Source of the DNA: a bacterium | GTDB lineage: Bacteria; CSSED10-310; JAJRTK01 | Direction: 5' to 3' | NCBI GenBank assembly: GCA_024278345.1 | Contig: JAJRTK010000532.1 | Coordinates: 1-11,042 of the forward strand | Length of the DNA: 11,042 nt | Shown here: piece by piece, positions 3,067-5,560 of the stretch | How the letters are laid out: every line of letters begins with the position of its first letter | How positions within the stretch are numbered: the first letter of the stretch is position 1 | Position numbers and translations under genes: made by a program | The notes under the pieces: model-generated | Told to the model about the DNA's origin: nothing | Database searches by the model: none | The model's input: only the letters and a program-made list of their open reading frames with translations

Positions 3067-4479
3067 ATGGGTAAAATCCTCGTCGTCGATGATGATCGCG
3101 GCCTGCGAAAAGGAATCGCCCTTGCGCTCAAGCGCAAGAAACATGATGTGGTGGAAGCAAGCAACGGGCTGGAAGGCAAGCGCGCCTTGGAAAAGGACGC
3201 CTTCGATCTGATGATCACCGACCTTGAAATGCCTGGACTCCGTGGAATCGAGCTCTTGAAAGTGCTACGAGAGCTGAGCCCAGAGACCATTCCAATGGTC
3301 ATTTCCGGCTTCGGCACCATCGAAAAAGCCGTCGAGGCGATGAAAGAAGGTGCCCAGGACTTCATCACAAAGGGCGATTCCTTCTCCATCGACGAGCTGG
3401 AAGTCAAGGTGGAGCGCCTTCTCAAGCAGAAACACCTCAAGGATGAAAACCGGCGCCTCACGGAGGAAAACCGGGTCCTTCGGGAGGCCGTGAGCCGCCG
3501 CTACCAGTTCAAGAATATTATCGGCAAGTCGCCGGCTCTCAGGGCGGTTTTCGCTCGTCTGGAGAAGCTTATTGAAGATGGGCAGGTGACGGTGCTCATC
3601 CGCGGTGACAGCGGAACTGGCAAGGAACTTGTCGCCCGGGCGATCCACTTCAACGGTCCGCGCAAGGACAAGCCATTTATCACCGTCAACTGCGCCGCCA
3701 TCCCAGACACGCTTTTGGAAAGCGAGCTTTTTGGCCACGAAAAAGGCTCTTTCACCGACGCCATCCGCACCAAGATCGGCAAGTTCGAGGCGGCCAATGG
3801 TGGGAGCATCTTCCTGGACGAAATCGGGGACATTTCCCTGGGCCTCCAAGTCAAGCTTCTTCGGGTCCTGCAAGAGAAGTCCTTCCAGCGGGTGGGCGGA
3901 AACAAGACGATCCAGGTAGACGTCAGGGTCATCGCGGCGACAAACAAAGACCTGGAAAAAGCGATGGTGGACGAGACTTTCCGTCCCGACCTATACTACC
4001 GCCTCAACGTGGTTCCCGTGACGCTTCCGCCACTCCGGGACCGCCGTGAGGACATCGGCCTCCTGGCAGAACATTTCCTGGCCCAGCACCGGAGGGAAAG
4101 ACATCGTAGAATCCAGCTCGCGCCGGACACCCTCGATGTCCTGCTGAAATACGACTGGCCCGGCAACATCCGGGAGCTGGAAAACCTCATCGAGCAGATG
4201 GTCGTCCTCTCCTCAGGCGAAATCATTGAGCCGCAGCATCTTCCGGCCTATCTGGTAGAAAAGGTGAGCACGCCCTATTCCCTGCCGGCTTTCGATGGGC
4301 ATCTCACGCTTAAAGGGGCGAAAAAGCGTCTTGTGGAGGACTTCGAAAAACGCTTCATTCGGTCCGCCCTGGATCGGTCGGGCTGGAATGTGACCCGCGC
4401 ATCCAAGGAAATCGGCGAATCTCGGGAAGGTCTCCACCGCAAGATGAAGCGGTACGGTATTCACCGCTCGAACCGCTGA
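3067..4479 (+). CDS. NtrC-family sigma-54-dependent response regulator
   Basis: A 470-residue two-component regulator with three domains. The receiver (1-120) has acidic D8-D10, phospho-acceptor D52 (MITDLEMPG), S80 and K102. After a charged helical linker (about 110-147), the AAA+ domain (148-380) shows Walker A GDSGTGKE (180-187), loop-1 GSFTDA (227-232), Walker B IFLDEIGD (248-255), a Glu-rich ESELFGHEKG approach, and the PGNIRELEN sensor-II region (365-373). A Fis-type helix-turn-helix ends the protein (about 425-470). Phosphorylation should drive oligomerisation and ATP-dependent remodelling of sigma-54 polymerase at distant sites. The canonical G-A-F-T-G-A loop here has Ser at position 2 and Asp at position 5. 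ATG 3067 is chosen because the receiver begins exactly there; the frame is open 37 codons further upstream, from TTG 2956. The ribosome site before 3067 is weak. No histidine kinase lies in the window, so its signal and targets are unknown. Confidence 0.92.
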   Translation: MGKILVVDDDRGLRKGIALALKRKKHDVVEASNGLEGKRALEKDAFDLMITDLEMPGLRGIELLKVLRELSPETIPMVISGFGTIEKAVEAMKEGAQDFITKGDSFSIDELEVKVERLLKQKHLKDENRRLTEENRVLREAVSRRYQFKNIIGKSPALRAVFARLEKLIEDGQVTVLIRGDSGTGKELVARAIHFNGPRKDKPFITVNCAAIPDTLLESELFGHEKGSFTDAIRTKIGKFEAANGGSIFLDEIGDISLGLQVKLLRVLQEKSFQRVGGNKTIQVDVRVIAATNKDLEKAMVDETFRPDLYYRLNVVPVTLPPLRDRREDIGLLAEHFLAQHRRERHRRIQLAPDTLDVLLKYDWPGNIRELENLIEQMVVLSSGEIIEPQHLPAYLVEKVSTPYSLPAFDGHLTLKGAKKRLVEDFEKRFIRSALDRSGWNVTRASKEIGESREGLHRKMKRYGIHRSNR

Positions 4480-4532: not shown

Positions 4533-4540
4533 GATTCTTC
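4533..4540. repeat. Left 8-bp direct repeat (target-site duplication)
   Basis: GATTCTTC abuts the left terminal inverted repeat of the MITE-like element and recurs identically at 4695-4702, directly abutting its right end. Confidence 0.7.
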
Positions 4541-4694
4541 GGGACCTATCAAATTGTCGTGTTTTTGCTTTACAATTTTCTTCGCCGAAACGGTGGCACC
4601 GGCATCTTGCCGGTGGCGGGCTGGATGGGATTCACGAAATTGAACGGTGGGTTCCTTTCGTGCGTGGACTTGTCAACCGGATCTGATAGGTCCC
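4541..4694. mobile_element. MITE-like non-autonomous element (154 bp) with 8-bp target duplication
   Basis: GGGACCTATCA at 4541-4551 is perfectly inverted as TGATAGGTCCC at 4684-4694; similarity continues for 2 more of the next 3 bases. Immediately outside both ends stands the same 8-mer, GATTCTTC (4533-4540 and 4695-4702). This is the arrangement left by a cut-and-paste DNA transposon that duplicates 8 bp. The interior is too short to code for a transposase. It contains a near-perfect palindrome (4597-4615), and a CAATTT/AAATTG pair (4573-4578, 4637-4642) sits almost symmetrically about it, so the whole could fold as a nested hairpin. IS families known to make 8-bp duplications with GG-starting ends (for example ISL3 or IS1595) could supply the transposase, but I cannot assign a family. 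No second copy or transposase is in the window. Confidence 0.72.
4597..4615. repeat. Palindrome CACCGGCA-TCT-TGCCGGTG (dispersed-repeat type)
   Basis: An 8-bp perfect stem (4597-4604 with 4608-4615) around a TCT loop; one mismatch further out, a G-C pair extends it to 4595/4617. Read through, it gives the peptides TGILPV (+) and TGKMPV (-). From memory, these recur as spurious translations of GGCATCTTGCC-centred palindromes scattered between genes in planctomycetes, cyanobacteria and related genomes. It lies near the centre of the 154-bp element and may be its core or a second nested repeat. Confidence 0.6.
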
Positions 4695-4702
4695 GATTCT
4701 TC
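4695..4702. repeat. Right 8-bp direct repeat (target-site duplication)
   Basis: GATTCTTC, identical to 4533-4540 and in the same orientation, immediately follows the right terminal inverted repeat that ends at 4694. Confidence 0.7.
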
Positions 4703-4822: not shown

Positions 4823-5560
4823 CTAGCGAACGGCGGCGAGCTCACTGGCTTGCGGGGAATTTTCCACCAGTAGCAACGTTCTTGGATCAAGTTTGACATG
4901 GAGATCCCCGGTTCCGGGATGCTCGTGGTCCTTGGCAATCCTCAGAAGCGGCCCAGACTCGCCAGCATCGACGCGCAAGACCACGGCTAGCGCCGAAGCC
5001 AGCGGCCGAAATGGCTCCGGAAGCCCGGCATCATAGTATCCCGGGTCCGTCCGGTGAGTCACCGCGGCCATCCACACCTCGGCCCCCAAATCCTCGGCCA
5101 GCTCAGCAAAATCGCTCAGTTCGTCCCGCGAGGCGCCGGCAAGGTCGAATCCGTCAAGGAGGATCACCTTCGGCTCGAATTGAGCATGGGCCACTAGAAA
5201 TCGGGCGGTTTCGGCAAGCTTCTCCGCCGTAAGAGAGTGGCCGACATAGCTGTGGATATGCCGAAGCCGTTCGATGTCGAGGTAGCACTGCATGGAGTCC
5301 TCGATCTTGTATGCCGCGGCAAAGTCTCGAAAAATCTCATCATACCATTCTCTTACGCGGCTCACCGTCTTGGTCAGCGACACGTGCAGCACCCGGCGCC
5401 CCCGGAGTGTAGCATCAAGGCCGATTTGTACGAGGATAGCGGTCTTTCCCACTCCTGGCCGAGCCAGGACGACCCCGATATCCCCAGCGCCCAGGCCTCC
5501 ATGGCAAGCCCTTTCCACCGCCCTCATGGGACTCTTGGCAATGAGATCTTTGCGAATCAT
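4823..5560 (-). CDS. RecA/DnaB-like P-loop ATPase of unknown role, downstream of EF-G
   Basis: A 245-residue cytoplasmic protein with a RecA-superfamily NTPase core. It shows Walker A ARPGVGKT (33-40) preceded by a GLGAGDIGVVL strand, like the linker-to-P-loop start of DnaB/KaiC-type ATPases. Walker B VILLDGFD (132-139) follows, then a WMAAVTHR segment that could hold sensor residues, and a late strand VVLRVDAGESGPLLRIAKDHEH resembling the last strands of DnaB C-terminal domains. It lacks the N-terminal domain of replicative helicases and is about half their length, so it is not DnaB. ATG 5560 is supported by AGGGAG (complement of 5567-5572) 6 nt upstream. It begins 15 bp after the EF-G stop, so the two are very probably co-transcribed. 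The function is unknown; ATP binding is well supported, anything beyond is inference. Confidence 0.8.
   Translation of the reverse strand: MIRKDLIAKSPMRAVERACHGGLGAGDIGVVLARPGVGKTAILVQIGLDATLRGRRVLHVSLTKTVSRVREWYDEIFRDFAAAYKIEDSMQCYLDIERLRHIHSYVGHSLTAEKLAETARFLVAHAQFEPKVILLDGFDLAGASRDELSDFAELAEDLGAEVWMAAVTHRTDPGYYDAGLPEPFRPLASALAVVLRVDAGESGPLLRIAKDHEHPGTGDLHVKLDPRTLLLVENSPQASELAAVR

Follow-up and report, generated by a model that had tools for sequence, protein, structure and literature searches.

The window considered here, which is the whole analysed stretch of 11,042 nucleotides, carries a 170-bp segment with exact repeats at both ends in the gap between two convergent genes, and the question is whether this segment is a mobile element, which enzyme would have moved it, and whether it serves the neighbouring genes. 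To its left lies the + strand gene of a sigma-54-dependent response regulator with its 3' end at 4479, and to its right the - strand gene of an AAA-domain protein ending at 4823. The footprint opens with an unstranded 8-bp repeat, GATTCTTC (4533-4540), which is found again at 4695-4702, and the two repeats enclose a + strand element of 154 bp (4541-4694). The left terminal inverted repeat (TIR; A end, 4541-4551, + strand) is GGGACCTATCA followed by AATTGTCGTGTTTTTGCTTTACAA, and the right one (B end, 4684-4694, - strand) is GGGACCTATCA followed on the - strand by GATCCGGTTGACAA, the repeat being TGATAGGTCCC as read on the + strand. The TIR pairing extends imperfectly past the 11 perfect bp (16 nt at 94%), and beyond this the ends diverge. 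A central hairpin, CACCGGCATCTTGCCGGTG, is located at 4597-4615 on the + strand, and a transposase ORF is absent from the 154 bp. The coordinates and letters of the TIRs and of the target site duplication (TSD) given in a preliminary description of this locus were found to be exact, and its statements on an internal palindrome, a convergent gap and a lack of coding capacity were also borne out.

The window copy belongs to a MITE family with the working name M1. In the host genome (6.06 Mb, 550 contigs, 87.9% complete; an incomplete and fragmented draft), the 11-bp end with up to one mismatch gave 222+185 matches against 32+34 for the reversed control, and the extended end GGGACCTATCARATYC, again with up to one mismatch, gave 176+137 = 313 matches against 0+0. 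The genome has roughly 150 copies, a figure taken from the pattern counts at two ends per copy, with many copies cut by contig ends. Alignment of 74 full elements from the first 1.24 Mb of host contigs has shown 154 bp to be the commonest length; the TIRs are common to all M1 copies, and homology between copies ends exactly at them. The family TSD is exactly 8 bp. Among the full copies with both flanks in about 1.4 Mb of host contigs, which were partly picked for carrying M1 ends so that densities there are not genome averages, 52 of 79 had a perfect TSD of this length, whereas flanks paired at random gave a mean of 0.0 perfect 8-bp matches. Exact flank matches of 5, 6, 7, 9, 10, 11 or 12 bp were present in none of the 79, and the flanks in the same contigs showed no strong target consensus.

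The preliminary description had proposed to look for further copies and for empty sites with a single target, and both were found, the latter as paralogues. In C533 one M1 copy is nested in another, and removal of the nested copy with one TSD leaves a 154-bp element which is 99% identical to the copy in C419 and about 98-99% identical to others. In C205 an M1 copy lies inside another repeat, of which a gap-free empty paralogue is present. As far as sequence can tell, these empty paralogues demonstrate that the M1 family inserts with target duplication.

The window copy is a member of a chimeric subfamily. The main subfamilies, S1 and S2, differ at 14 sites to the left and 31 sites to the right of the central hairpin, and S3, which includes the window copy and five others, joins a left half of S1 type (consensus 14/14) to a right half of S2 type (31/31). 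In the window copy the half of S1 origin covers 4541-4595 (14/14 diagnostic sites) and the half of S2 origin covers 4616-4694 (31/31 diagnostic sites and two S3-private substitutions), both on the + strand, with the chimera breakpoint in or next to the hairpin. Since the two private substitutions are common to five of the six S3 copies, it is the chimera itself that has moved. Judging from these diagnostic sites, S1 and S2 recombined at the hairpin that they share, or next to it, and the resulting S3 then spread again. With an intact TSD and no difference from the S3 consensus, the window copy fits the recent insertion claimed earlier.

The 154-bp segment is therefore identified with high confidence as a MITE, being short and free of a transposase gene, with common TIRs, a fixed 8-bp TSD, dispersed copies and empty sites. 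It has very probably been moved in trans by a transposase making 8-bp staggered cuts, presumably of the DDE type. The window copy is very probably neutral and was inserted fairly recently in the gap where the two convergent genes have their 3' ends. In the proposed mechanism, a DDE-type transposase, presumably supplied from elsewhere, would bind the GGGACCTATCA ends and would probably also use the subterminal TTKACA box; the element would then be inserted into 8-bp staggered cuts, and gap repair would produce the 8-bp direct repeats.

An autonomous element or full-length IS with GGGACCTATCA ends was not found in the ~1.4 Mb scanned, and whole-genome transposase searches (IS1595, IS256, DDE_Tnp_1, ISL3, IS6 and ISKra4) gave no GGGACCTATCA ends. 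IS256 and IS6 had no match in the whole host genome. IS1595 was rejected as the parent, as its two decayed copies in the genome have the end GGCTCTATATGC, and M1 was rejected as an IS1595 derivative, the local IS1595 end GGCTCTATATGCGATCC being without GGGACCTATCA within one mismatch. The DDE_Tnp_1 candidate was a single ISAs1-like fragment on the edge of a contig and the ISL3 candidates were fragments only, both without M1 ends; an IS1-like fragment in the host genome is likewise without them (the IS1 and ISAs1 labels come from reading of translated fragments). ISKra4 is represented by three truncated and decayed relics with no M1 ends alongside.

M1 may be compared with derivatives of prokaryotic Mutator-like elements (p-MULT: IS256, ISH6, ISLre2, ISKra4) or of IS1595 insertion sequences. 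With p-MULT it has in common the direct repeats of 8 or 9 bp and the terminal C, and ISKra4 and IS1595 transposase relics are present in its host genome. The p-MULT elements have 8- or 9-bp direct repeats, a conserved terminal C and inverted repeats of 18-39 bp (PMC3942029). M1 agrees with ISKra4/p-MULT 4 in the first two features but differs in the third, having 11 perfect bp, and no parent IS with M1 ends was found. By this analogy, ISKra4/p-MULT is taken as a lead only to the transposase source, and as a doubtful one; our guess would place ISKra4/Mutator-like (p-MULT 4) first and IS1595 second, neither being linked to M1 by sequence. As the genome is an incomplete draft, the parent IS may be unassembled, unbinned or lost. 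A longer element named M2 (L208, L209:1501 and L210:625, in C395, C390 and C385) looked like an IS end and leads to no transposase. Its three copies begin with about 31 bp as in the M1 B end and continue with ~70 bp of unrelated sequence; M2 may be what is left of the parent IS end.

The central hairpin is conserved with compensatory changes. CACCGGCATCTTGCCGGTG is retained in nearly all M1 copies, the variants being CACAGGCATCTTGCCTGTG in older copies and TGCCGGC/GCCGGCG in one copy. Over seven pairs in 20 diverse copies, 99.3% of cells were paired and the covariation score was 0.145 vs 0.057; cells with both sides changed numbered 5 vs 1.0 in shuffles (0/500), where four A-T replacements may represent one inherited event and independent covariation events are few (two pairs). 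Sliding the pairing frame left 0 or 1 double changes. It is the structure that is maintained here, probably in the form of a nucleic-acid hairpin module. In the C36 copy the left arm is complementary to the right one, the two forming a long perfect palindrome which resembles a template-switch correction.

This covarying hairpin also bears on readings in which the element is retained for a function or spread by another enzyme. It had been suggested that the segment may fold into a single long hairpin and act as a two-sided terminator, and on each strand the predicted folding of the 170-nt segment does surpass that of shuffles (z -4.7 and -6.0), which together with the covariation would favour retention of the element for a function between convergent genes, either as a two-sided transcription terminator or as an RNA processing hairpin. 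However, the predicted RNA fold has the TIR pairing around several short stem-loops in place of one long hairpin, and much of the folding comes from the TIR pairing alone. After the central hairpin there is no T run of the kind that, behind a GC-rich stem, marks a Rho-independent terminator, and only 1 terminator-like site was found vs 0.7 expected. The placement of the copies points in the same direction. A simple gene caller based on hexamers assigned 77% of the sequence to genes, yet left 72 of the 74 copies outside them, and the numbers of copies in gaps (7 in convergent, 25 in codirectional and 10 in divergent ones) track the shares of intergenic bases (34, 98 and 36 kb respectively; 34 of 169 kb convergent), so that no enrichment in convergent gaps is seen. 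The terminator or processing function is considered very unlikely. As to the two copies flagged as genic, that in C400 lies ahead of what is probably the real start of a response regulator, and that in C49 (L170:16193-16346) has entered an ABC ATPase gene in frame, with DEPTGDLD before it and VTHD after it, where 154+8 = 162 bp, or 54 codons, keep the frame open and add 54 residues; this gene also appears frameshifted upstream of M1 and may therefore be a pseudogene.

M1 resembles REP/BIME repeats with RAYT transposases in its short covarying hairpin core, its tandem core arrays and, once, an adjacent Y1 ORF, and it might be read as a palindrome of the REP type that owes its spread to a REP-associated tyrosine (Y1) transposase, the TIRs being incidental. 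Exact copies of the 24-nt hairpin are present at three places in unrelated phage contigs (IMG/VR) that lack M1 ends, and two of the three places seem to be one homologous site, so that the palindrome may occur more widely than M1; the core also forms tandem arrays at the ends of two contigs (35-bp and 43-bp units, 4.8 copies). In C390 a Y1 ORF (L209:473-1198) starts 21 bp after a diverged M1-like element (L209:288-452); this element is without a TSD and, alone among the M1-ended elements found, has a different core. The ORF matches REP-associated tyrosine transposases (Pfam Y1_Tnp above cut-off; NCBIfam NF047646 at 67 bits, below the cut-off of 80), and its position in this one case may be due to chance. 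REPs, however, are not known to have TIRs or to make a TSD, whereas the movement of M1 tracks its TIRs and a strict 8-bp TSD, and 119 of the 133 core motifs in the scanned 1.24 Mb are near M1 ends, the remainder being mostly arrays of the same core; spread by a Y1 enzyme is thus extremely improbable. A composite, with a DDE-type MITE frame and a REP-type hairpin under its own selection, served by two unrelated transposases, is based on the same C390 ORF and appears unlikely. If it were true, the ends would be the substrate of a DDE enzyme and the core that of a REP-associated Y1 enzyme, and the shared core would allow both the exchange of halves and the growth of tandem core arrays. A repeat produced by segmental duplication or by assembly, with no transposition, might be suspected in a fragmented assembly where an M1 end lies within 170 bp of 56 of the 228 contig ends examined (contigs partly selected for M1), but the flanks differ from copy to copy, each with a private 8-bp duplication, and the sharp end of homology at the TIRs also speaks against it. 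Refuted by these independent TSDs, this origin has a vanishingly small probability, and the DDE-type MITE is the reading that we retain.

Outside the host, M1 was absent from 7 other genomes of the phylum, all of other families, and neither phage and plasmid records nor IMG/VR contained a match to it. One outside copy is present in JAJRTE010000302.1, a contig of a 'Myxococcota' MAG. As it is the only real M1 copy in that 7.0-Mb genome, the contig is most likely misbinned; transfer is possible. A second match in the same MAG was rejected, as it looks coding and is without the M1 interior. An Rfam search gave nothing convincing and a search of a literature library found no relevant paper with M1 ends. 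The family, as suspected from the letters, is unassigned. While such elements are familiar as a kind, novelty with respect to the collections searched lies in the family itself, in the mix-and-match combination of its halves and in the conserved hairpin at its centre.

Other repeats were also observed. A second MITE family in the host genome (G000), M3, is ~200 bp long with ends GGCCTCGGTCATGGTACCGGCCAC and an 8-9-bp TSD in several copies (C481:2873-3072, C364:6478-6676 and C5:335-535; L144, L174 and L085), and an ISL3 transposase ORF is interrupted by its copy at C5. Also present is a third repeat family, M4 (180-350 bp, ends GGGTATCCACGCAAAGCGGGACA), which has 163 ends in ~1.4 Mb, with 8-9-bp direct repeats recognized by eye (C77:2812-3158, C494 and others; L128 and L177). 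On JAJRTE010000302.1, an M1 half is flanked by M4-like repeats (L205:4931-5043). In C239 (L154:7982-8014), GGGACCTATTATTTTT is repeated three times in tandem just upstream of an ORF; the sequence is similar to the M1 end without being a copy of M1.

Correia elements (CREE) of Neisseria are, like M1, TIR-bounded MITEs, and their subfamilies are defined by combinations of ends. Their ends are longer (~26-bp) and their target is TA, whereas M1 has an 11-bp TIR and an 8-bp TSD. Correia elements occur in more than a hundred copies, and Rickettsia palindromic elements (RPEs), of about 150 bp, enter genes in frame (PMC10969869), as M1 does in the ABC ATPase gene; unlike the RPEs, M1 has one such case among 74 copies, in a host gene which also appears frameshifted upstream.

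Our study presents M1 as a clear example of a bacterial MITE that has spread with great success, in a phylum of which few genomes have been sampled, and one which is frequent at assembly breaks. It shows stepwise how subfamilies of MITEs can arise, two lineages recombining at a hairpin common to both and the chimera then spreading. The conserved hairpin also raises a testable question, namely why a transposon without genes keeps an internal structure.
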